The notes below the pieces were generated by a model. That model did not search any database, was not told the origin of the DNA, and saw only the letters and a program-made list of their open reading frames with translations. This document shows positions 1 to 40,481 of a stretch of DNA of 64,000 nt, in pieces (position 1 is the stretch's first letter; each line of letters begins with the position of its first letter). Position numbers and translations under genes: made by a program. Location: NCBI GenBank assembly GCA_003024175.1, contig MDYQ01000007.1, positions 248,001 through 312,000 of the forward strand, given 5' to 3'. The stretch comes from Planoprotostelium fungivorum. Taxonomy: Eukaryota; Evosea; Variosea; Cavosteliida; Cavosteliaceae.

Positions 1-57
1 CGCGTGTGGCGTGTCTTAGACAAAGATGGAGTCGATGATTAGACGTGGATGATGTCT

Positions 58-759
58 TCAGCTGGGTAATCGAGGTAATGCATCTGAGAAACAGAATTTC
101 TGCCTTCCTCTATAGACATTGTTCTGTAATATCGTGCTCGAACGAGTTCGACACAGCGATCGACAAAGATCGAAGGTCCCCCCTTCAAATGATTCCATTT
201 GTCTCCTCTTCGTCTTCTATCCGTTGTTAGAATATCTTGTCTATCGGAGACATCTCACGTTCGAACTGTCCATGCAACATGAGACACAGACTTCGTAGCT
301 GTTGCAGCAATCATTCTCTCCACAACCTCCACACGTGAATCTCTCAGCGATGGAAGGACAACAACTCGAATTACTGAGGATTTCGTTCCATAGACACGTG
401 CGACCTGTCCATCTGTAAATCCCAGCGACTGAATGTTCATAGACATCACCTGCATCATCGGTGACCCTTTGTCCATTTTCTACGGTATGTCTACATCTTC
501 TCTTGTGTGTGTCCTCTTCATTACTGACATCCACCTCTGCCGCCTGAGGATCTCTCCCCACCCCATAGCTCGGATCGCTCATACGATGCATCGACAGTGT
601 GATCATTCCCAGATATCCCACGGAGAACAGTACAAAGAGGGTCAGTAGCGACCTCTTGTATGATCGCGGGCGCATGTTCTGTATGAGGAAATGCCGGTTT
701 TCGTTCTTGTTTTTAATACGAGATCCTTCAGATCTGTGCCCACTCTCCGATCTATCCAC
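58..759 (-). CDS. SPRING / C12orf49-like protein (SREBP-regulating family)
   Basis: Two exons, 759-259 and 216-58, with a 42-nt intron (258-217) that has a CTAAC-type branch site and keeps frame. The product has an N-terminal membrane segment (LLTLFVLFSVGYLG) and a luminal Cys-rich domain. It shows CxGCGENDCCNSYEVCVSCC, and exon 2 carries FDLCRSLCRTRSS and a VY-RG-Q-FC pattern. Human C12orf49/SPRING has the same order (CCDGCWPNGCCSAYEYCVSCC, then FELCLAKCRTSS and a late Cys). In animals SPRING is a Golgi protein that licenses site-1 protease and so SREBP cleavage; that role here is inference. Length is 219 aa from the first Met or 191 aa from the Met at 675, which sits directly before the membrane segment as in the human protein (205 aa) and is the likelier start. 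Confidence 0.85.
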
Positions 760-780
760 ACGTCACAGGCTTCCCTGTCT

Positions 781-1373
781 TCATGCGGTAGTCTTCACAG
801 AAGCGTCTCTCTCCCCCACGTCTAAGGCGACGAGAAAGCGTGAGACCATGTTGTACGACGCGATGGTGGCAGTGAGTTCGACAATGTGACGATCATCGAA
901 GTGGGATCGGAGGTGAGAGAAGATGGAGTCTGGCACACGGATGGAGGTAGTCATCGCATCGGTATAGACGAGGGCGGCTTTCTGTTTTTCAGACAGAGGC
1001 GATGTTTCTGTGTGAGGGTGAGACAATGTGGTATTGAGACGATACGATGGGAGACGAGATTTGATTCACCTGATTGAAAAGATCGAATCGATTCTAACTG
1101 AGGTTCGGTCAAACCTGCTGCTCTACCTTCTTCCACGTGTTGATCCCACTCATATGATGCTTCATTCAGAATGGCTATGCGAAGGATGGCAAGCTCTCTG
1201 ATATCAGCGGATAGAACCAAACCTGTGCGGATTGTGCCCATCATTGAGTTCCATCCTTGAGCCAGAGGAATGCTGTGAAGGAGGGTTCGATCGAGATCTA
1301 ACAATTCGCCACCTCTTCTCTTTCGAATGACTTCTGTGACTGGATCCTGAGGTTCTACGTATGGCAATCGCAT
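781..1373 (-). CDS. Carboxymuconolactone decarboxylase-like (AhpD-fold) protein
   Basis: Two exons, 1373-1070 and 1007-781, joined in phase 1 across a 62-nt intron; 176 aa. The sequence fits the CMD/AhpD family: a helix with RELAILRIAILNEASYEWDQH, then the LSEKQKAALVYTDAMT stretch and a FDDRHIVELTATIASYNMVSRF helix. The EWDQH region holds the His and acidic residues usual for this fold. No CxxC pair is visible, so it is not an obvious AhpD peroxidase; it is closer to the CMD-like branch whose substrates are mostly unknown. No signal peptide is seen, so it is probably cytosolic. The start Met (MRLPYVEP) was chosen because residues upstream in the same frame are not family-like. It lies between the SPRING homolog and the start of the divergent receptor gene, 364 bp from the latter's ATG. 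Confidence 0.8.
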
Positions 1374-1737
1374 GATGATGGCTGTTGAAGTTTGTTTCCA
1401 AGATTGGGGTGTAAAACAAATCGTAAAACAGGACAGTGCTTTTCTTCGTAGAGGATGATGGTGCACCTGCTCTATACCTTTCCTCCTTCTTCGTAATTGA
1501 TTTTCCTTCAACAAGAGAATGGGCATATCTTGGCATCTCTCGCCAATCTGATGCAACGCATGCGATGCAGATGAAACGGAATGAGGATGGTGAAACATGT
1601 GACGTAACAGAGGGAAAACAGCGGACGTCTATGTGATGTGGGATGGTCTCTTCAGATGGGGCTGTTGATGTTTGACATCTTTCTGTTGTGTCAAAATATT
1701 TCCAGCAAACAGGACAATAGCATCCTCATCTCAAAGG

Positions 1738-4700
1738 ATGTTGGGCCTACTGTGTCTGTGTGTATTGGCTCGTTTGGGAGATGGATTTCATATGGGCAAC
1801 ACCTCTTTAATGGGAACCATCGATTGGACCAGCAACACGCTTGCATTTCAGCTGGCTCCTCCGATCATCGCTTACATAAATGCCTCCGGTTTCTATATTG
1901 CAGTGAGAAACGGTATAGGATAGCTCATTCGCCAACATCTTCAGAACTACACCAAAGGGTTTCAAAGTATCGCCGTATACCCTCCGGCTGGGTCGTCTGG
2001 CAGACCCATCTTGAGTGCCGCTATTCAATGCATTCCATGGGTTGGTTGCGCAGCCGCCATGGAGAATGGAGGGACACTCGCTGCCTTAACATACAATGTC
2101 GTCAACGGCCAGACGACTTCGTACGTCTTTGACAATTCTGGTAAATCCTCGAACCCCCGGATCACAAACATCACAGCCATCCTCGCCTTTCGAGATCGCT
2201 TTAGGGTAAACGCATCATCTCCTGACCGCCATCATCTCACACGGGATCAGATCTGGACCACGAAAGATGCCTATGACATCACTTCGCATATCGTGAGCAT
2301 CCAGACCCCTCAGCCTCTGGCTGATTCCGTCACAACTCTACCAGATTATTACTATTACCTATCCAATGGGGGTATACAATGTGTCCTCATAAAGGATGGA
2401 ACACTCAATGCCTGTGGTCAACCTGGACCGTACAATCAACTAGTACCTCTCCCGTTCGATTCTACCTCCGCAGTACCCGTAGAATTCTATACCACGGTCG
2501 CGGGTGAGCCATCTACATCGTTGTAGATGAGATATTAACGAGACGAGGTGTCGGCTTCGGTCTCATCTCATCGTCCGGACAAACGAAATCTGCGGGATAT
2601 TTCCTCTTTCCCACCGTCAGCGCGAACACCATCGCATCAGCCGGTGATCCGTACAATCGAGTCAGGTGTACACCGATGTACGCTCGAAATTTCACTGACA
2701 TCTCAGGTACTGGATGACAGACGGAAATGTGTTACGACACAATCAGGGAGGTAGCCCTCGCAAATGGATAGAGAATTTTCCATACGCATATGACATCACA
2801 ACGGCAAAGTGGGACAACAGCCTGAGGGCCTTGATCGTTGCGAGTCGAAATTTCCGCGGAAATTGGGAGGTCAGTCGAGTGGACGTGGCCGGTGAGAGAT
2901 TTTTGTGTTGTAGACGAGTGATGGTGTGGTAGATTGTGGAACGTATCAAGGATGTCAAGAGTGTCTAGGGTATATCAACGGATCGATCGACACTGGTGAC
3001 CATTTCTACTGGTGATTCTCAACGAAATTTCAAGACTGACACGTATGTGACAGTTCGTACTCCCCCGATTTGAACCGTTGCGTCGTCAAATCTCCCAACA
3101 CCTCCCTCTATCAGGTAAAATTTCCGTGAAAATTAGCGCGACTACAACAGTTCGACAGAACAGCTCGCAGTGTCCTTTCATCGTGGGACAGAACGTTCTC
3201 AGACAAGTCGTTGGTGTACTGAGTTCCGTTCAATTTCTCGTTGCCAATGGAAACTCCAAACTCAACTATTCTTGTTCGTTCACGAGAAGTGACAATCTAT
3301 CTCAGGTGAAATCCACGTGAAATTTCAGGATGGTCTGACACAAACGCAGATCGAATACACCCCGGCAACACAGTCACCGTACGTATTCATTTCAAATTTC
3401 CTCCAAATTTCTCCATTCGTGATTGACGATCACAGTACCCCATCTGGTATATCGATCAATTGTCCGAGTCCTCCGGGAGATTTCACCGCAATTTACGATG
3501 TACAATTGATCACATCACCCGATCGGGTGACTTATGCTACGAACCTCACCAACACCATCAATCAATTCATAAGGCAGACGTGCACCGATTTCAAAGAGTG
3601 AGGCAAAATTCGCGCCGTCATCTCTGACTGGTTGTAGTGTGAGCAGTTGTGTCAACAGTGTCTGCGGCTGGTGCAATTCGAAAAGTAAGTTGAGATGCAC
3701 GATCTACAATACTGACGCGTCGCAGGTATATGCAGTGACAGCACGGTTGGCTGTGATTCGTATTTAATTGTACCCATCACAGTTAGCTCCATTGTCCCCA
3801 ACTACACTTTCGTATACGATCCAGTTGATGTGACGGTGACTGGTACCCACTTCTATACAAGTGAGACTTGAACTTGATAGGAATTTTATTGAATTGAATC
3901 GATTGTAGATGCACTATATCATTTCCTGCTGAGAAGCGACACAAGCTTTCCCACGACGGTAGATTTCGATGAGAACTCGAGTCAGTGGAGTGGATCAGGC
4001 ATCGCCGTCAGCGAGTCAACCATCGTGGGAAGTCTGACGGGTCAGTCGATAGACGACATCTATCTACAAGTGTATCGTAATCACAGCATCGTTGGACAAC
4101 CTCTGACGCTGACGACAAAGAGTGAGATCCAATGTGAGATGAAACTGAATAAGATGTAGATTGCAGTGACTATGTTGGGTGTACAACATGCATGAGCAAC
4201 AGTCCATGTGTATGGTGTCAGTCCGAATGTGTCAGGCGTACGTCAGATGTCATGACATCGATGTCACCCTGTGTCTCTTCCAATTGTTCGGGTGCGTACA
4301 CAACATCTCTCACCTTCTCATGCATCTAAAGAGACAATATCCACCCTATCACCGCTGTACAATGATGTCTTAGCACCAAGTCCACTGTCTCTCTATCTAT
4401 GGTACTCTCCTTCCACCATCGGTCTCTCATTGGATTTCACGAATGGATTTAGGGTGATATTCCGTATTGTAACATCTCGTGATTTTCTCAACTGTTGTAG
4501 AACGTCAGTACGAACCTCGTTTCGTCTCTCAAAAGATCATCTTATAACTTGTCTGCTGCGGCTCCCGCCTTACCCCCGGACGAATATGCAGTCTACGTTG
4601 ACGATGGAACAACATCTCTGATGAAATTACCACAAGTCTACACGGTCGTCAGTGAGTGCTATGAACAGAAGAAACGAAGGCTGAGAAGTAAACAGACTGC

Positions 4701-6306
4701 TCCGTATCTGTCAGCTGTGACGGCTGTCAACAGAATGGAGAAGCTTGTCATTGGTGTTTGACAGGGCGAGGAATGGAATGCCTTGGTCACAGCAACAGCG
4801 AGTGCACGGCTGCAGTACAATGTTCCAACGGTCTAGTCGGTGGTCGGTCCAATTCCAAGCTAGTGGCAGTGCTAGCAGGAGCCATCGGCGGTGGTGTCGC
4901 CCTCCTACTCATCATCGCTCTCATCATGGTGAAGTGTCATTCTATACAGCAGGGAGACTGAAGAATGCAGGTGATTGCGATGAAGAGGAGAATGAAAGAA
5001 CACGAAGAGATAGGGATGGAAAGAGCTATGCCATCTAAGCCAGATCTCAAGATCTTCGCATACGTATGCCTGGTCCCGATTGTCAAGGTGAATCGAAAGC
5101 GATGACGTAATATGACGTCAGCAGATCACGGAAGAACAAAGAAGTCAGTTATCTTCGCTCGAAAAGATGCTACTCAACGACAGCTTCACCTTCACTTCAA
5201 GCCTCGTGCGTAGCGTACGTGAGGAAGAGTTGGAAGAATTCTCTCGCTACTACATGTACATCGCTCTACACGAGAGCAGACAGAAGGGATTGAATCTGTT
5301 GTCCTTCGTGCTGACGAATGATGTGTCATCCGACCGTGAGTGCTTCAGCTACGATATCGTAGATAGAGAATGACACGACGCAGAATGTGCAACGAGGAAG
5401 AGTGTGTCAGCGAGTATGTTTGGAGCTTATTCGAGATCATCTGATCTGGACTTTGTATGGAACGCTGTAGCTAGAGTGGTATGGGATGCCATCCACACAT
5501 TCGATGATTTTTCCACGGTGAATCATGTGTTGAATATGTTTCCATTGACGCTTGACAGGAGAACGACACGTTTGTAGATGACCATGTCTACACGCTGCTG
5601 ATGTTATCCTCCAAAGCTTTCAATGGTTTGAGAAAATCGGCGGGATCTTTGACAATGGCAACCCAATTGGCTCTGTTTCGCATCAAGAACGGTGGACATC
5701 ATGTCAGCACGGACAGACAGATGTCTGCTCTTGAGAGAAAGCATCTGGGACACTGTTTCTTCGGCTCTTTCGTCGTGTCTTCCATAATGCATCCTCACCT
5801 GTGGGGCATCTGCGATGGTGAGCAGTGTTCATCTCATGGTTCGTCTGTTAATGAACTGCAGCACCTGTGAAGCCTGCGGCACAGAGAGGTCTGAACATCA
5901 TTGGAGAAGGTATAGAAGTTGAACAGACAGATCTAATGGTAGTACAGTGTTGCTACATTTGGCCAGTAGTACGATGCCCAGTTCAAGGTCACCAGAGCTG
6001 AAGAAGTTTGATCAATTTGTTACGGACAACATCCCTCGTTTGAGCAAATACTACGATGTCATCTCAGTGAGTATAAATATTAAATCTCTCTTGAAGTTCT
6101 CATTTGACGTTGCTCGTGGCTCACAGCGACAGAATGGAAGAGGAGAGATGGAAGGAAAGTATGTCGCAGTCTCAGACGATGTGCACATGGCCTCACTGGT
6201 GTGGATGCACAACTACATCTACACAAACAGAGACAGGCTGAATGATCCTCACATGCAGAAATTAAGGTTAAACTTGTGTGAAGATCTGATTTCTTCAGAA
6301 GAATAA
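1738..6306 (+). CDS. Plexin-like receptor: PSI/IPT ectodomain, one TM, cytoplasmic RasGAP domain
   Basis: I resolve 22 exons: 1738-1902, 1945-2503, 2548-2706, 2751-2891, 2933-3011, 3054-3114, 3159-3305, 3350-3597, 3638-3684, 3726-3860, 3909-4121, 4160-4291, 4332-4453, 4501-4651, 4696-4928, 4971-5087, 5125-5335, 5384-5517, 5559-5817, 5862-5909, 5948-6066, 6127-6306. They sum to 1219 aa in one open frame. Order: signal peptide (1-15); about 325 residues of unassigned N-terminal domain where plexins carry Sema; PSI1 (CGTYQGCQEC, about 343); IPT-like 1 (about 389-510); PSI2 (CVNSVCGWC, about 525); IPT2 with VTVTGTHFYT; PSI3 (CSDYVGCTTC...CVWC, about 652); IPT-like 3; PSI4 (CSVSVSCDGC...CHWC, about 787); TM (about 840-864); basic juxtamembrane; RasGAP-fold domain (about 904-1219). 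GAP evidence is ATRKSVSASMF (candidate arginine finger near residue 978) and RGLNIIGEVLLHLAS. A 45-nt in-frame segment (2206-2250) could be one more intron. Function as a surface receptor acting on Ras/Rap GTPases is inference. Confidence 0.8.
2511..2528. repeat. Intronic palindrome, copy 1 (ATCTACA..TGTAGAT)
   Basis: Arms ATCTACA and TGTAGAT around TCGT. It lies in intron 2 of the plexin-like gene (2504-2547), starting 8 nt behind the donor. One of seven related copies in the window; see also 43254, 48109, 48989, 49770, 53499 and 55181. Confidence 0.85.
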
Positions 6307-6589
6307 ACGGTTGAACCACAGTGACTCTTCTTGAACGTGTCACGACCAAGGACGAATGGATCGACAAGTTCAAATGGAGGAAGATCCAAGACGGACTACA
6401 CGCGCCGTGAAATATCTCCAAATGATCAACATTCACGTGTCATCTGTAAATCTTCCTCCCCTTTAAAATGTGAAGGACGACAAGAACAGAATGATTCGTA
6501 GAAGAACGTCACGATAGAGTTTGTTGGTGTCATTCCGCGATGATCAGAGGAATATAATGGAAGACAAGATCCTTCATTCTTCGTTAGCT

Positions 6590-9500
6590 TCAGAAGAGCA
6601 AGGCCAAGAGAGAGACCACAAAGACAGTGACACAGAACCCAATGGTCTCTCCTCCATTTGCGGAGATGCGATCTGCTTCTATAGTAGAAGTAGAACCGGT
6701 GGTAGAGGGGAGAGCTAACGTCTGTCTCTCCATCGAGATAGAGGAGATGGGAGCTGCGGTGGAGAATCTCAGCTGATCGACCAACAGGGGCACATCTGCG
6801 TAGTAAGGATAGAAGCTGAGCCTCAGAGTGGAGATGGTGTTTCCACCCATGTCAGCCAGATTGACTCTCACTGCTCTCGGTCAGCGTGGTAAATCCTCGA
6901 TGAATGATGTGATAGAACTCACCGAACGACCAGCCGCGAGAGTTGATGATGAAATCAGTGCTCTTACTGGGTACGATGTTCGTCTTTTCTTCATCAGAAA
7001 CCATACGATGACATTTTTGAACTCACCGAGTTCTTTCCAGATGGATTCGTCGCTTCTACGGACAGATTGAAGAAGTTGTAATTGTTGTACGATCTAGTTG
7101 CTCGCACGTAAAATTCGAGGGAAGTGAATCTGCTGGGTACAGTGATGGCTTGCCTGTCATTTCTCAAGTACAAGTAGGTGTTGTGGGACAAGATGAGAGG
7201 CTTTCCACCACAGGTACTGGTGCCGTTCACTTGGATGTTGGTGGGGGCAGTGTAGTTGGTGCTAGCGAAAGAACCATTGTACACGTTCATGATCTCGTAA
7301 GCAGGTTTAGCGCACGCAGATGGACTGGAAGATGGTACAAAAGCAGCCGTGGGATCTTCCAACTGGAAGACACCGACCAACAGCTGAACGAGTGAGAAGA
7401 GAATCAGAGATGTGATGTCACCTGTCTACCGTCGACAACAGATCTGATCGACATCTGCAAGTTTCCATCGACAGCAGCCTGCCAGAAAGCGCGGGAGATG
7501 CGGATCATGGAAGTGAAAGCAGTCTGTCCGATTACGTTGTCGGCAAGGACGATTCCAGTGGAGCGATCTTCCCACGAAGCGTACAGATCTACAGATCCAC
7601 CAGGGATGTTGTGCCAGATCTGGAATCCAGCTGCGGGACCTTCCAAGACGCTGCTGGGGTACAGCTGAAGGAACACTTGAGATTCTGCCGCGGCCTGACC
7701 GTTGGGTGTCTGTGTGTACGTGTCATTCATCCAGTGAGCAGACGAAGTTTCACCTTGAACTTGAGACGGTACTTATCGTAACGCAACACGTAAGGGATGG
7801 TGCTGGGCATGGGAGGTACAACGTAAGCACCCGGAAGAGAACATTGGTCTAGGCTACAATCGGCTCTGATCTGATCTATTTCAGATGAAGTCGGATGAAA
7901 CCTCCTCACCTGATAGAAGTCCATGGTCACTTGCCAGTGATCGTATCCTCCGCTCGATTGGTTTCTGTAGGGGAACAACCAGAAATTCCAAAAGTCTTCG
8001 TTGACGAGAACGTACAAGTGCTGGTTCGTGTTGTTGTACCAATAGGTAGACGGTGAGAGGTCTTCCCATCGAGATGCTTGTCGAAAGAGTACACCTCTGT
8101 ACGTGTTATCTTCTTCACTGTCATACAAACTCACAGGTGAGATACGTTGTACTGGACTCCGCGAGGCACTGGAATGGCAACGACGTTCCAATCTCCTCTC
8201 TTTGCATCCTTTATGGCTAGATCGAGATAAGGAAGTGCTGCTGTTCTCCTTCCGGTACTGTCTGTGAAGAGAGGAGACCAGTAGCCGAGAGAAGGTGTCG
8301 GTGCTTTTCCAACGGCTGCGTCCGTGTCAGAGTGGAACGGGAAGGATTCAAACGATCTTACTGAACAAGTAAGGACCGTCTGGTGCGCTGCCGAGGGGTC
8401 GGTAGAGGACGACCGTGGATGGTCCAGCTGGTTCCTGGTAGATCTGAGTGTCGGTAGAGATCCTGGGATTGGGTGAAACTTGAGCGTATACATTCTACTA
8501 CAATTCAGAGGATGTTACGTGATTATAGCTCACTGGTGGCATGTGCATGGCAATCATTCTCCCGTGGAAAGAAGGGATGAGGTAACCGTTCACTTCCGGT
8601 CTCGGAATGGCACCCGGAATTGTACCGTAGAACGTCTGATTTCCCGCCATCCAGCCTCCACCGGGTATGATGACACCAGATCCCTCAGCGTAGCAGAGTC
8701 CGTTCTTGACGGTCTTGTACAAGTTAAGACTGACGTCCGTGCCTGCCACCATGGGATTGGCGTTGATGAACTTGCAGTTGAAGCAGACTCCGTCAGGATA
8801 AGTACCGAACTGACCTGTGTTACTGTTGACGAAACCTCCCATCATCTTGTCTGCAGAGGAAGTGAAGTTGATGAAGGTACAGTTGATCAATATGGCGCCA
8901 CCACCGTTGTCGTAGTTACGATAGCCTCCCACGTAATAAGCTTTACCATCAGGAGATGGAATCGACCTAGAGCGGTTGCCGACGGCCAATCCACTGAAAG
9001 AGTTGAGTGGGCTAGACGATCACGTGACCTCACTAGTTGTCCGATTCTCCAACAAAAGTGACGTTGATGAGAGCATTCATATCCGTTCCGATCATCAGCT
9101 GATTTCCGGAATCGAGCAGAACCATGTCGAGATAAGCAGAATAAGGAATGAATAGAGCCCAGAAGGCAGAACGTCTGCACTTGTACGCCACAAATCGAGA
9201 GAAGAGGTTGTCAGCGTTCTGTACAGAGTGAGAAGAATGGAAATAGCAACATAAGAACTCACAGAAGGTCCTGGTCCCCAATTCGATTTACCTTGAACGA
9301 GATTCCCTGCGGAATCTTGTCCGTCCTCGACTTGTAATCCGTCCTTGTAGCAAGAGTGGGCGACGTTATTATCAAACGGTTGGATGAAAGAAGCTCTTCC
9401 TGGCAACATGTTGGGCCATATCTTACCGCTGGTACCGAGAGGACTGGCAGGAGGGATGAACCAGTAGCCAACGTGGGTCGAACTGGCAGCGTTGTTGATG

Positions 9501-11038
9501 AATATGTTCTGTATGTGAGTGATCCAGAACATGGAAGGTTCAACATCGGATGGAATGAGGGGAGGGTACATCAGCTTCGCGTATATACCGAGGTTACCGT
9601 CGAACGTGTTGTTCATCTCGGAGCCATCTTCGCTGAGATGGATTAGATGTCAAGAGAAGAGTGAAGGACTCACAGGAAGTAACAGTGACCGTACGTCTTG
9701 TAAGCGACGTTCTGCTTCACTAACACTCCGCTTGTTCCTGGCATAGCATATCAGACTACAACTTGCCAGGAGATGATGTCACCGTGGATGGAGATACATC
9801 TCTGATAGTTGTCATGCATTGAAGAGTTGATGAGAGCGGCTGTGATGTCGTAGACATCCATGGCCAAGTGAAAGTGCACGGGATATCTTCCCAATATGCC
9901 CTGCTGACCCATGCGAGTGAACTCCACACCAGTGATCTGCAATATCTGTCCGTGACGTAAGAGAACGTGACCACCGTACAGCTCTGACTCTGATCCGTCG
10001 TCACCCCTCACGACAATGTTGCGTGTCAACAATCTATCGAATGTCAGTAGGATGAACGATGGATGTCAATATTCACCCCACTTCGGCTCTCTCGTAGTTG
10101 ATGCCCCAGTGCATCCACGACAGAGGTGTCTTCAGTGTCAGCGTCTTTCTGTCGGCTGAGATGGAAGAGATGATGGCTGTTTCACTCTGCTCGGGAGAGG
10201 GAACACCGTTCATGGGTGATGTGTTGGGCAGCTTCGAGCTGAGTACCTACTACGTGTCACCAAGGAGGAGAGCATGAGAGATGGTCTGACCCACCTCAGA
10301 GAAATCTGTGGAAGAGATGACGATGCTGTCCCCTGTACTCCAGTACACAGGCGTGTCCAGAGTCAGGGTAGTGTCACCCTGCATGGCAGTCTTAGACAGT
10401 CTACACCAGAGGGGACCGAGAGGGTTGACATAGCCGTTCATCTGCAGAGAGCCGTTCTGTGCCACCACTATACCTTTCGATCCGAATGCGACGTTTCCGT
10501 AGATGGCTCCAGCTGTCGGATCGACACCGAGAGTATCCGATCCTGCGTCGGCTTTTCTTCCAAAGAGGGTGATGGTCACCTGCTCTTGTGTGAGCACTTG
10601 TAGCCGGAATGTGATGTGAGATGTTGGAATGAGATATCATTAGATGTCTCGACGAGATGAGATGCGAGAATGATTGACCTTGGCTGTGATGGGACAAGTG
10701 GGTGTGCCCACGATCAGAGAACCGCTAGAGTAGACGACGATGCCTTGCGTCTGCAGATCCATCTGCTTGTTGCTGACAAACAGAACGCCTCTGACCTGGA
10801 TGACACCCAGCACGACCGAAGGGGAAGCATCGAGCAAGACCTTTTGGCCGGCCGCGATGCTGACTGTAGCATTGGCTGTGTTCCACGAAGCGACTGAGAC
10901 AAGAGTCAAATGCGAACTCAGAGATGGTCTCCTGAGGTCACCTGTCGACCAGCGGATGTACTGAGAAGTGTCTGGACATTGAGCTCGGACGCCGCAGCAG
11001 AAGGCCAAGAAGACGAACAACCAGAGCCGGCTGCTCAT
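6590..11038 (-). CDS. G8-domain / parallel beta-helix surface protein (CEMIP/PKHD1L1-like), GPI-type tail
   Basis: About 16 exons. Resolved ones include 11038-10942, 10893-10679, 10582-10295, 10246-10077, 10033-9783, 9737-9674 and 9632 onward, and the last ends at 6590. The N-terminus is a signal peptide (MSSRLWLFVFLAFCCGVRAQ). A G8 domain follows (GQKVLLD, VRGVLFVS, GSLIVGTPTCPI, then VTITLFGRKADAG and GDSIVISSTDFSE). Next come parallel beta-helix signatures shared by CEMIP, TMEM2 and PKHD1L1: RMGQQGILGRYPVHFH, then GHCYFLEDGSEMNNTFDGNLG. The C-terminal half is beta-rich with many N-glycosylation sites. It ends in a small-residue site plus hydrophobic tail (GFCVTVFVVSLLALLF), which looks like a GPI signal. 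CEMIP and TMEM2 act on hyaluronan; substrate here is unknown. The 3' end faces the 3' end of the plexin-like gene (284 bp apart). Confidence 0.85.
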
Positions 11039-11095
11039 GTTTCGAGGCCAAAAAGAATGATTCGCCAGTCTGGCATTGGGGTGTCAGTATCGGAA

Positions 11096-11172
11096 CGAAG
11101 CGAATCCTAAGGGGGTGCTTCTCTTCACGAAGCGAATCCTTAGAGGGGTGCTTCCCTTCACGAAGCGAATCC
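11096..11172. repeat. Short tandem repeat upstream of the G8 gene
   Basis: The block CGAAGCGAATCC occurs at 11096, 11128 and 11161, spaced 32-33 bp, with GGGGTGCTTC(T/C)CTTCA between copies. It sits about 60-135 bp upstream of the G8 gene's ATG (11038), so it is in its promoter or 5' leader. Confidence 0.8.
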
Positions 11173-11384
11173 AATCTTCAGCTTCTTATAAATGGCCTCT
11201 CTCTCGGCTTCGTGAAGAGAAGAACGGTCCGACATAGAAAATTGTCGAGGAAATACCTTCTGCGAGTTAATTGGTTCGATATATCGTGGTGTAGATGTCA
11301 GGTCCAGAGAACCATCCTTCATCGTTCGTGAAAAATCACAACTTTCCATCTGAGTGAGACGAAGGGAGGAGAGAGACACTGCGT

Positions 11385-37160: not shown

Positions 37161-38654
37161 TTAGAGGGTGTTGACGGGGGCGGGGCGACCGGTGAGATCC
37201 TTGAGGTCGACACGTCCGTCGTGGTTTCTGTCCAGAGGGTTCACCTTGGCTCCTCCAACCATTCCTTGGTTGTTGGCCAGAAGGGGCTGCTGTCCGGCGA
37301 GTCCTTGTTGTCCGTAGCCGGGCTGACCGGTCAAGTCCTTGAGGTCGACGCGACCGTCGTGGTTTCTGTCCAGAGGGTTCTGGTGCAGACCTTGTCCAGC
37401 GAGTCCTTGTCCCATCATGGGCTGTCCGGCGAGTCCTTGTTGTCCGTAGCCTGGCTGTCCAGCGAAGTCTCTGGCGTCGACTCTACCGTCGTGGTTTCTG
37501 TCGAGGGGGTTCTGGTGAAGACCTCCGGCGAGTCCCTGCTGTCCGTAGCCTGGCTGTCCGGCAAAGTCTCTGGCGTCGATTCTGCCGTCGTGGTTTCTGT
37601 CGAGACCTTGTTGTCCGACCATGGGCTGAACGAGTCCGTGAGATGTGACCAGGGGAGGCTGTCCGTAGCCCTGAGACAGTCTCTGTCCTTGCTGGTTGTA
37701 GCCTGGCTGTCCGGCGAAGTCTCTGGCGTCGACACGACCGTCGTGGTTTCTGTCGAGGGGGTTGTGGTGAGCTCCCTGCAGACCCTGGCCCATCAGAGGA
37801 GCCTGAGTGTAGCCCTGAGACAGTCTCTGTCCGGCGAGAGGCTGAGCGTAGCCTCCGCTGAGGCGGTTTCCAGCCTCACCCAGGTTGAATCCCTGAGCTT
37901 GCAGGGCGGCGATGTCTCCACCGATGATGCCTCTGTCTTGAACGATGACGGTGCTGCGGTGAACGTGGGGGGCTTCGACAATCTTCTCGTAGATGGGCTG
38001 GGTGTTCTGGATGACGGTGGACTGGATGATGTCTCTCTCTAAGACGGGCTGGATCTCCTCGATGATGGTCTTCTTGATGACCTCCTGGACGATGGGGGCG
38101 TGGACGACCTGGGTGCGGGTGGCAGCGTCGACTTGTCTGGAAGATGCGACAAAGTTCTCTTGGATGGCGGCACCTCTCTCGATGATGGCCTCACGTCTCT
38201 CGGCGGGGAGCTCTCTCTGCTGGACGATGGTGGGCTGGATCTGAGTCTCGTGGAGGAGCTGGGTGACCTGCTTGACGTCGAGCTGCTCTCTCTCTCTGTA
38301 GATGATGGGTTGGATCTCCTCCTTCTGGACGGGGTGGATTCTCTCTTGGATGACGACATCCTTTTGGATGGTCTCGATGATGGTGGGCTCAGCTCTGACC
38401 AGAGAGGCTCTCTTTGTGGATTGGACGTAGACTCCTTGTTGTTGAGTGAGGAGGGTGGCATCGTGACCCTGAGACAGTCTTCTTCCGGACAAGTCGTTCA
38501 GATCGACTCTGCCGTCTCCGTTGCGATCGAGGGGGTTGGCGTGGTGTCTCTCGTTGAGGAGGACCTTCTCATCTTCAACGCGGCCGTGGGCGAGCTTCTT
38601 CTCTAAGTTGCTCTCGAGCTTGGATTCCAGGGCGGCGTTGTTGAGTGCGGACAT
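37161..38654 (-). CDS. Intronless protein with alveolin-like charged region and six EF-hand-like loops
   Basis: Single exon, 497 aa. Residues about 40-58 hold the first loop (DRNGDGRVDLND). Residues about 80-245 are a charged, Ile/Val-Pro-rich region with repeats such as IQERIHPVQKEEIQPIIYR, EEIQPVLERDIIQ and TQPIYEKIVEAPHVH, which recall alveolin/epiplasmin-type cytoskeletal repeats and related fungal allergen-like proteins. The C-terminal half is Gly/Gln-rich (QPGYGQQGLAG) with five more loops of the form DRNHDGRVDxxD. These have Asp/Asn/Asp at loop positions 1, 3 and 5, Gly at 6 and Asp at 9 and 12, like the Ca-binding loop of EF-hands and dockerins, but without clear flanking E and F helices. 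No signal peptide. It may be a Ca-responsive structural protein; function is inference. The strong codon bias suggests high expression. Confidence 0.85.
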   Translation of the reverse strand: MSALNNAALESKLESNLEKKLAHGRVEDEKVLLNERHHANPLDRNGDGRVDLNDLSGRRLSQGHDATLLTQQQGVYVQSTKRASLVRAEPTIIETIQKDVVIQERIHPVQKEEIQPIIYREREQLDVKQVTQLLHETQIQPTIVQQRELPAERREAIIERGAAIQENFVASSRQVDAATRTQVVHAPIVQEVIKKTIIEEIQPVLERDIIQSTVIQNTQPIYEKIVEAPHVHRSTVIVQDRGIIGGDIAALQAQGFNLGEAGNRLSGGYAQPLAGQRLSQGYTQAPLMGQGLQGAHHNPLDRNHDGRVDARDFAGQPGYNQQGQRLSQGYGQPPLVTSHGLVQPMVGQQGLDRNHDGRIDARDFAGQPGYGQQGLAGGLHQNPLDRNHDGRVDARDFAGQPGYGQQGLAGQPMMGQGLAGQGLHQNPLDRNHDGRVDLKDLTGQPGYGQQGLAGQQPLLANNQGMVGGAKVNPLDRNHDGRVDLKDLTGRPAPVNTL

Positions 38655-39092
38655 TGTGTTGTGTGTTGTGTTGTTGCTTGATTCTGTGGTATTGAACAGA
38701 CTGAGCGATTTTGCGTAAAATCAGTTTTACGGAATCTTGACGTGAAAAACCGCGTAGAGAGGAGCAAATGAAAGGCACGTGAGCTATCAAAGCCACAACC
38801 AGGGAAAATTCGAGAACGAGAGTGGTAGAGATAGGCTTCCCTGCTGCCGGTAGGGATGCTGGAATGAGATGGCGATGACCATTTCAATCGTGATGGACTC
38901 GAAGATCTCGAGCGTGAGATCTATCTGAGACACCTAGATTAAATTTCAGACTCCACTGCTGGAACACCTGACGATGTGATTAGAACCGTGACATGTATCT
39001 TCTGAGACATTATTACCCCCCACCCCGGACGATTCCTTCCATCGATCAAATACCCATTTCCACGAAGATCGTCGCGCCTGCGAGTCATTCAG
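38655..39092. promoter_or_regulatory. Divergent intergenic region, EF-hand-like gene / M4 peptidase
   Basis: 437 bp between two start codons facing away from each other. It contains an ACAACACACAACAC-type tract just upstream of the minus-strand ATG and a C-rich stretch (near 39014-39030). No recognisable regulatory element beyond that. Confidence 0.5.
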
Positions 39093-40481
39093 ATGGAGAA
39101 AGTGATCCTCGGCTTACTTTTGGGCCAGCTATTCTCTTCCAGGAATTTTGATTCGAAGAAACATTTGGGTCCAGTGGGCCCCAAGAGCCGTTTGTACATC
39201 TCAGTGCACAAGATCAAACCAGACAAACTACGAACAGCAGCAGCAGCTATGTCACGACACAACTGCGAGGGCATCATGCCACGTCTCAACAAAAAATCTG
39301 GGACATCATCTTCCCAACACCCAGAACTTCCCCCGTCTGCTGACAAACACCATCACGTCGATGCGTCAGCTGAAGACACCAAACGTAGCCACACCGGAGA
39401 CGACGAGCCCCTCGGCTCTAAGAGGCGAATCATCGCATTGGGTGACGTTACCATCGCTGTACCTGTTGGGACACCAAAGGTGAGAAACAAACTCATCTCA
39501 CGAATTGACATAGTGCAGAACACCTTCCACCGGTGCATCTACGATGCTCACCAGGAGACGGAAGAAACAGACTTCAAGCTCAAGAGAGACGAAGGGGAGA
39601 AGGATGCGGAGGACTCCATTGTTAACGTTTGCTACGGCAACTTGGGATCATTTCACACATTTATGAGAGACACCATGGGACACGACACCCCCTTTCGGAT
39701 ACTGGCCGCTATCCACTTCTCCACCGACTTCTACAACGCCACGTTCGACAACCTCTGGCTGCTCATTGGGGATGGATCAAAGGATCGTGATGATGCACGC
39801 GGCATCTACATCGACAACCTCGCTCGCGCCATGGACATCCTTTCGCACGAAGCCACCCACCAGCTCATCTCATTCCTCCCCGACAGCTGCCCCTTTAACA
39901 ACTTGGACGACATGGAATCGAGATGCATCGCAGAATCCATCTGCGATGTGTTGGGAGTTCTAACTCGCCAACACCAACTCTACGGGATGACTCAGAGGCC
40001 CATCGACGATGATTACTGGTTGCTGGGTGCCGATGTCATCTGCACCAGACAGAATGGAGTGGGACTACGCTCTCTGAAGTCACCGGGCCACGCCTTCAAG
40101 AACCATCCTATACTGGGCGACGACAAGCAGGCTGCCCGCCGCAGCGAGTTCGATCCAAATGAGGACTCTCATTACAACTGCGGCATCGCCAATCATGCCT
40201 TCTACCTCTTTGTGATGAATCTGGGAGAGGAGAGGGAGCCTTGGAAGAGAGCTGGAGGCATCTGGTTCAAGACTCTCTTAGACAGTGCCGATCGAAAGGG
40301 ACACGTCACCTTCATCTCCTTCGCGATGTGGACTCTGGAGGCCGCGAAAGAGTTGTTTCCTGAGACAGTGGAACACTTGATGAAGGCATGGAACGATGTT
40401 GGTGTACCTGTGGAGGAGAAAGAAAGGGAGAAGAAGGGAGATGGTGTTCTCATGGAGGTGCTGAAGGTGGACTGCAGATGA
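39093..40481 (+). CDS. Thermolysin-family (M4) metallopeptidase, protealysin-like
   Basis: Single exon, up to 462 aa. Zinc ligands and catalytic residues are visible: HEATH (HExxH) in MDILSHEATHQL, the third ligand in CIAESICDVLG (ExxxD), and the late HYNCGIANHAFYL with the catalytic His. The end AWNDVGVP matches the M4 C-terminus. The Met at 39249 gives MSRHNCEGIMPRLNKK, which resembles the short protealysin propeptide (CxxIxPxxL), and RCIYDAHQETEE with RDEGE also fits protealysin-like enzymes. The upstream Met at 39093 adds MEKVILGLLLGQLF, which could be a signal peptide. M4 enzymes are mostly bacterial. The lack of introns in such an intron-dense window supports transfer from bacteria (inference). 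It may serve digestion of prey or act inside the cell. Confidence 0.88.
   Translation: MEKVILGLLLGQLFSSRNFDSKKHLGPVGPKSRLYISVHKIKPDKLRTAAAAMSRHNCEGIMPRLNKKSGTSSSQHPELPPSADKHHHVDASAEDTKRSHTGDDEPLGSKRRIIALGDVTIAVPVGTPKVRNKLISRIDIVQNTFHRCIYDAHQETEETDFKLKRDEGEKDAEDSIVNVCYGNLGSFHTFMRDTMGHDTPFRILAAIHFSTDFYNATFDNLWLLIGDGSKDRDDARGIYIDNLARAMDILSHEATHQLISFLPDSCPFNNLDDMESRCIAESICDVLGVLTRQHQLYGMTQRPIDDDYWLLGADVICTRQNGVGLRSLKSPGHAFKNHPILGDDKQAARRSEFDPNEDSHYNCGIANHAFYLFVMNLGEEREPWKRAGGIWFKTLLDSADRKGHVTFISFAMWTLEAAKELFPETVEHLMKAWNDVGVPVEEKEREKKGDGVLMEVLKVDCR

Follow-up and report, generated by a model that had tools for sequence, protein, structure and literature searches.

A predicted plexin-like receptor family with neurofibromin/p120GAP-type RasGAP tails and a probable pseudo-GAP pair in Planoprotostelium fungivorum

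We analysed a 64,000-nucleotide stretch of the Planoprotostelium fungivorum genome (contig MDYQ01000007.1, positions 248,001 to 312,000; hereafter the window, G000:C461:248001-312000 in our numbering, from a genome of 36.86 Mb in 471 contigs). A receptor gene at window positions 1738-6410 of the forward strand is predicted to encode a type I single-pass receptor, one of five family members found in the genome. Its stalk resembles that of plexins, which act in nerve-cell guidance in animals, and its cytoplasmic tail is a Ras GTPase-activating protein (RasGAP) domain of the neurofibromin/p120GAP type. Although short of certainty, the explanation that we consider probable as a whole is that stalk and GAP domain were joined independently of plexins, that three members have active GAP domains, and that the window protein and its closest paralogue form a pseudo-GAP pair.

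Results

Five predicted proteins join a PSI-IPT ectodomain to a RasGAP tail

The window protein has 1206 residues in the order signal-peptide-like start, N-terminal domain, PSI-IPT-PSI-IPT-PSI-IPT-PSI, membrane helix, basic juxtamembrane stretch and RasGAP domain (Table 1). The 808 residues before the helix contain 18 N-glycosylation sequons and 36 cysteines, and the 368 residues after it contain 2 and 4, respectively; since both are concentrated before the helix, a type I topology fits. The original prediction, made from the letters of this DNA, had described a signal peptide, one membrane helix, a basic juxtamembrane segment and a RasGAP-fold cytoplasmic domain, and all of these are present in our hand-curated model (the signal peptide judged by eye). 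Its unassigned N-terminal domain of about 325 residues is retained and refined to about residues 17-327. Four PSI-like units are likewise found; the cysteine pattern, which each was described as having or coming close to, is incomplete in PSI1, where CxWC has no first Cys, and in PSI2, where the second Cys of the pattern is absent. The three IPT-like domains stand as three units, of which IPT2 alone has a Pfam TIG match and IPT1 and IPT3 are placed by position and internal repeat.

Genome searches with the two halves of the gene matched loci C139 and C142 with both halves and C107 and C170 with the GAP half. Together with the window protein, the predicted proteins of these four paralogues join ectodomain, membrane helix and GAP domain. 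C139, C142 and C107 follow the four-PSI plan (the last PSI of C139 is cut in its model), and C170 has three PSI units and a model without a signal peptide. C139 is the sister of the window protein (support 1.000), and their GAP domains are 57% identical. In C107, a single predicted protein passes the Pfam cut-offs for both PSI (3.1e-13) and RasGAP (1.6e-25, 90.7 bits); the curated cut-offs are 23.1 bits for PSI, 28.3 for RasGAP and 20.9 for TIG. Of the intron positions with matching phase, 26 are common to two or more proteins, 20 to three or more, 10 to four or more and 5 to all five; random placement gave means of 1.4, 0.01, 0 and 0, respectively. This agreement is far beyond chance, and therefore ectodomain and GAP domain are linked by descent. 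Judged from these gene models, the receptor gene is real and a single unit, not a chance join, as the original prediction had claimed in placing both parts in one gene. Separately, C433:77258-77494 matches the PSI4-membrane segment weakly (E 0.009, 28%) and is possibly a further relative.

The tail was compared with known families by profile. PF00616 (RasGAP) matches in 5/5 members (best 3.6e-27); the window protein gives 18.5 bits as a whole (E 0.0019) and 21.2-21.9 bits on its tail (1.8e-4 to 2.8e-4), below the cut-off. A five-member GAP profile matched 13 distinct sequences in the PDB at E<=10, all of RasGAP type. The best were neurofibromin (7.9e-30), p120GAP (4.5e-27), SynGAP (1.6e-14), IQGAP2 (2.1e-13) and IQGAP1 (2.3e-11), and the alignment with the neurofibromin chain 1nf1 spans positions 14-312 of 327 (1.5e-29).

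The window protein and its sister have lost the catalytic residues

Catalytic columns were read against the neurofibromin (NF1) letters of the profile alignment, at positions 79, 194 and 226 of the 1nf1 chain. We take these to be R1276, R1391 and K1423, presuming that the construct starts at residue 1198, with which the chain positions agree. At the arginine-finger column the window protein has Thr and C139 has Asn; C142, C107, C170, NF1 and two further RasGAP genes of this genome, C124 and C450, all have Arg. The column of the FLR arginine holds Ser in the window protein, Glu in C139 and Arg in the same six sequences, the motif itself reading FGS in the window protein, FKE in C139, FHR in C142 and FLR in C107 and C170. 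At the K1423 column, the window protein has Glu, C139 has Asp, C142, C107 and C170 have Arg, and C124 and C450 have Lys. All three tested positions are thus lost in the window protein and C139 and basic in the other three paralogues. That this pair lacks all three is a new observation.

The GAP domain of this pair changes more slowly than the ectodomain, despite the residue loss. Nonsynonymous over synonymous divergence (dN/dS) between the window gene and C139 is 0.357/2.21 for the GAP domain and 0.31/1.98 for the membrane and juxtamembrane part (about 0.16), and 0.555/2.22 for the PSI-IPT part and 0.571/2.65 for the N-terminal domain (ectodomain about 0.2-0.25), all of these being rough values since dS is near saturation, which counts against leaning on them. 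A comparable RasGAP fold is found in IQGAPs, for which PMC12871552 describes a finger Thr, YYR replacing FLR, no GAP activity and no Ras binding via the domain. IQGAPs and the window protein share the fold, the Thr and an altered FLR motif (PMC12871552), but Pfam lists no IQGAP-specific domain for the window protein, which has a secreted-type ectodomain. These observations suggest that the window protein is most likely best read as a pseudo-GAP receptor.

Alternatively, the window protein could be an active GAP, either with Arg945 reaching the active site or by a different mechanism on another GTPase. Arg945 lies directly after the finger column, where loop placement is uncertain, and the domain is constrained; a non-canonical mechanism has a precedent in the plexin GAP, which acts on Rap in this way according to PMC3787391. 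However, the FLR and K1423 positions are lost too, and the finger column of its sister C139 holds Asn, the closest Arg lying four residues upstream. We consider an active GAP unlikely, and the pseudo-GAP assignment is kept below.

The likeness to plexins lies mostly in the PSI units

The original prediction had named five Pfam profiles for checking, of which PF00616 is treated above. PF01437 (PSI) matches, with the window protein below the cut-off (13.8 bits for the whole protein, E 0.077; 17.8-20.1 bits on the PSI-IPT piece, 8.2e-4) and C107 above it. When units were scanned singly, 12/14 matched at E<=1 (best 4e-7); these 14 were taken from 19 by excluding the long-loop PSI1 of the window protein, C139 and C142, the cut PSI4 of C139 and PSI2 of C170. 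PF01833 (TIG) matches IPT2 in all four members scanned, C170 being excluded (best 6.6e-5); the window protein remains below the cut-off (E 0.002, 18.5 bits), and neither IPT1 nor IPT3 matches a family by itself. The ectodomain profile aligned with itself shows a repeat offset of ~140 residues (E 7e-10), equal to one PSI-IPT unit.

In the PDB, a PSI-IPT profile of four members (excluding C170, with one unit fewer) matched Plexin-A1 (9.9e-10), Plexin A isoform A (6fkm, 2e-7), Plexin-A4, A2 and MET. A PSI-only profile reached 7.2e-9 with Plexin-A1 and also matched the MET PSI, an IPT1-only profile matched Plexin-A1 at E 1.6 only, and an IPT2-only profile matched no plexin chain. Because the PSI-only profile explains most of the signal and the IPT1 and IPT2 profiles do not, the likeness of the ectodomain to plexins is mostly that of PSI, and we dropped the interpretation of these matches as whole-ectodomain homology.

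PF01403 (Sema) gave no match in the five members: Sema is absent among the three Pfam families listed at E<=10, a listing from which HMMER filters drop most matches with E above 0.1. Among the three PDB matches of the family profile there is no Sema chain, and a very diverged propeller may remain. Neither Pfam nor the PDB profile gave a convincing family for the N-terminal domain, and it shows no internal repeat. A propeller was considered for the YWTD-like RYWMTDG seen by eye and rejected after these three tests were empty, and weak Pfam names (DUF6727, 0.0017, and two others, in one member each) were set aside.

For the GAP domain, PF08337 (Plexin_cytopl) is absent among the Pfam families listed for the five members and, at E<=10, among those for the window protein. 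No plexin cytoplasmic chain is among the 13 PDB matches, in a PDB set whose inclusion of such a chain is unconfirmed; plexin cytoplasmic structures do exist, for example PDB 3IG3 (PMC3787391). Searches of the genome itself with Pfam PSI, Plexin_cytopl and Sema were empty, and the controls were equally silent, which makes them uninformative on absence. The GAP-domain tree suggested by the original prediction was built on a small scale and places the five members apart from C124, C450 and NF1 (support 0.997), with no plexin in it. From finger column to FLR Phe there are 109 residues in the window protein vs 113 in NF1, in a tail of 368 residues after the helix; therefore there is no room there for a large insert such as the plexin RhoGTPase-binding domain (RBD), which in plexins is inserted in the GAP domain.

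Comparison with known receptors and GAPs

Plexins and this family are both type I receptors in which PSI units alternate with IPT units, followed by a single membrane helix and a RasGAP-fold tail. They differ in that the family has no detectable Sema domain, a shorter tail without room for the RBD insert, a GAP domain of NF1/p120 type, and PSI4 at the membrane, ending ~10 residues before the helix, where plexins have IPT4-6. PMC6374515 gives choanoflagellate plexins three additional IPT domains, reports plexins from choanoflagellates and animals, and finds no Sema-domain protein in one ichthyosporean and one filasterean genome; words starting with amoeb or Dictyostelium are absent from its main text. 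A description of a PSI-IPT-RasGAP family was not found in the open-access literature searched.

With neurofibromin and p120GAP, the family shares a GAP domain alignable nearly full-length, and three paralogues are basic at the three tested positions. RasGAPs of that type are cytosolic proteins, whereas the GAP domain here is a receptor tail and 2/5 copies lack the three residues. In MET and RON a PSI is likewise followed by IPT domains, and the family PSI profile matched that of MET, but these receptor kinases have a Sema propeller and a kinase tail.

True plexin descent would mean that plexins predate Holozoa and that this family is a diverged relative which lost recognisable Sema and RBD domains. 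The plexin-like module order and the PSI-IPT profile matches to plexins speak for it. Against it, the likeness lies mostly in PSI, which occurs in non-plexin proteins too, no Sema domain is matched, the GAP domain matches NF1 and p120GAP and not plexin, and the spacing leaves no room for a large insert. We regard plexin descent as improbable. The original prediction had left open older plexins or an independent origin of the module order; the order is indeed plexin-like, but without a Sema or Plexin_cytopl match and with a PSI at the membrane, and the evidence favours the second option. Plexin orthology was thus rejected as the main explanation on GAP type, the missing Sema match and the different membrane-proximal unit.

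Parallel assembly is favoured because the GAP domain is of NF1/p120 type, Plexin_cytopl and Sema are not matched, and a PSI, not IPT4-6, adjoins the membrane; it is favoured also because C124 is predicted to encode a receptor with a RasGAP domain under a different ectodomain. We note what weighs against this reading: the plexin GAP also has a RasGAP fold, sequence profiles could miss a weak plexin tie, and the case rests on such profiles together with a PDB set and a tree that bear on plexins only as stated above.

Gene model

The receptor gene is one spliced unit with an intact frame, as the original prediction had it; the 22 exons and the end at 6306 given there did not hold, and the curated model has 25 exons. 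The stop read at 6304-6306 falls within intron 6278-6321, whose removal moves the 3' end to 6410. Introns on this contig are short (37-47 bases in 466/818 of the last training round), of the type GTGAG...CAG. The gene finder used codon, splice-site, branch-point and intron-length terms and was trained on 264 kb of the window's contig. With adjusted weights and free ends, on 1-6590 and on 1630-6590, it returned a single forward-strand gene at 1738-6410 with 23 exons and a score of 196.5; the best score among 20 random sequences of equal length was 29.1. The finder keeps introns 3379-3435 and 6067-6126, which are open in frame, as exon sequence, hence 23 exons if both are retained. Their removal is favoured because paralogues have introns at the identical place and phase (C139 for the first; C139, C107 and C170 for the second). 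Intron 2206-2250 would likewise be open if retained, and C139 and C142 have an intron there. As a side observation, phase-1 introns 2892-2932, 4122-4159 and 4652-4695 lie in the first codons of PSI1, PSI3 and PSI4 (codons 328, 619 and 754); phase-1 introns at module starts are the typical pattern of shuffled modules.

Several points tell against the model. The finder's weights for Cys, Trp and other amino acids were adjusted after the PSI motifs had been noticed; unadjusted, it gives 2059-6306 with a score of 99.7. An earlier free run gave 2059-9822, a filtered gene list does not contain the receptor gene, and when the sequence is extended to 9000 both versions run into the opposite-strand neighbour. 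The paralogue models come from the same finder, with the defects noted for C139 and C170. Taken alone, the window protein is under the Pfam cut-offs for both PSI and RasGAP, and its exons are missing from the matches listed by the genome-wide Pfam RasGAP search.

An artefact, in which two neighbouring genes or wrongly spliced pieces were joined by eye, would agree with the unadjusted result and the run-on into the next gene but is very improbable given four paralogues with the same join, common intron positions across it, and PSI and RasGAP above the cut-offs in one C107 protein.

Table 1 Features of the receptor gene and protein in the window
Feature	Position	Strand	Basis or remark
Exons 1-7	1738-1902, 1945-2205, 2251-2503, 2548-2665, 2707-2891, 2933-3011, 3054-3114	+	curated model
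Exons 8-14	3159-3305, 3350-3378, 3436-3597, 3638-3684, 3726-3860, 3909-4121, 4160-4291	+	curated model
Exons 15-20	4332-4453, 4501-4651, 4696-4928, 4971-5087, 5125-5335, 5384-5517	+	curated model
Exons 21-25	5559-5817, 5862-5909, 5948-6066, 6127-6277, 6322-6410	+	curated model
Whole coding region			curated model, gene finder, intron positions common with paralogues
Signal-peptide-like start, residues 1-16	1738..1785	+	judged by eye
N-terminal domain, residues 17-327 (~310 residues)	1786..2890	+	no convincing family match; paralogue alignment
PSI1-like unit, residues 328-368	2891..3096	+	long loop, CxWC without first Cys
IPT1-like unit, residues 379-480	3171..3577	+	position and internal repeat
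PSI2, residues 481-512	3578..3754	+	second Cys of pattern absent
IPT2, residues 517-618	3767..4120	+	Pfam TIG, window member E 0.002 (under cut-off)
PSI3, residues 619-662	4121..4290	+	Cys pattern complete; Pfam PSI E 0.0031, unit scanned alone
IPT3-like unit, residues 663-753	4291..4650	+	position and internal repeat
PSI4, residues 754-798	4651..4829	+	adjoins membrane
Membrane helix, about residues 808-836	4857..4985	+	hydropathy 2.68 over 19 residues, then KRRMK
Juxtamembrane segment (basic), residues 837-870	4986..5087	+	
RasGAP-type domain and C-terminus, residues 871-1206 and stop	5125..6410	+	family profile (neurofibromin 7.9e-30), Pfam RasGAP 5/5 members
Thr944	5392..5394	+	arginine-finger column (NF1 R1276); residue 945 is Arg
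Phe1053-Gly-Ser1055	5760..5768	+	replaces FLR motif; Ser1055 at NF1 R1391 column
Glu1087	5906..5908	+	NF1 K1423 column

Other RasGAP genes and neighbouring genes

The genome-wide Pfam RasGAP search gave 55 exon matches at E<=1 in 38 loci by count, many of them weak, an apparent RasGAP expansion. Twelve of the 38 loci were inspected: the four paralogues, C124, C450, C45, C259, C452, C5, C40 and C268. The next receptor-type match is C124 (C124:123092-127772), with a signal peptide, a membrane helix, a RasGAP domain (5.6e-27) and Arg, Arg and Lys at the three tested positions; its ectodomain looks IPT-like and EGF-like in places by eye, but neither module is among the Pfam matches listed. Because C124 carries its RasGAP domain under a different ectodomain, receptor RasGAPs are wider here than the PSI type. 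By eye, its gene model runs on into a succinate dehydrogenase-like gene. The C450 model has no clear ectodomain. In C45, C259, C452, C5, C40 and C268, no 19-residue stretch averaging >1.6 was found in ~1.2 kb upstream, a screen that misses an intron-split helix and that was positive in 6/6 known cases (the window gene, the four paralogues and C124; 2.68-3.83).

Within the window, a carboxymuconolactone decarboxylase family gene (about 799-1381, reverse strand, 9.4e-8) adjoins the receptor gene. A predicted reverse-strand gene at 6590-11322 is CEMIP/TMEM2-like: the 789-residue piece scanned matches both a G8 domain (2.5e-21) and a CEMIP beta-helix (6.4e-57); CEMIP and TMEM2 are known from hyaluronan turnover in animals. 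A predicted reverse-strand gene at 37161-39619 has repeats of NPLDRNHDGRVDARDF type matching EF-hand and dockerin models.

Discussion

The locus would encode a receptor whose N-terminal domain, carried on a PSI-IPT stalk, may sense something extracellular. Its RasGAP-fold tail would have been joined to this stalk independently of animal and choanoflagellate plexins. On receptor engagement, the three members with basic residues probably inactivate a GTPase of Ras or Rap type beneath the membrane. As likely pseudo-GAPs, the window protein and C139 may instead bind without catalysis, act as scaffolds or pair with an active paralogue. The nearest working analogues are plexins for the layout and IQGAPs for a RasGAP fold without catalysis. 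A bolder and rather doubtful version is that a protist lineage invented receptor RasGAPs with plexin-like stalks independently of plexins and that pseudo-GAP and active members form heteromers gating Ras/Rap shut-off at the membrane, comparable to animal receptors in which a kinase-dead member cooperates with an active one.

If independent assembly is correct, a receptor family was built from a different RasGAP branch, and the coupling of such an ectodomain to a Ras-family off-switch would have been reached more than once. The constrained pseudo-GAP subfamily would then be a natural experiment on the role of a non-catalytic GAP domain in a receptor, with the residue-keeping paralogues as controls.

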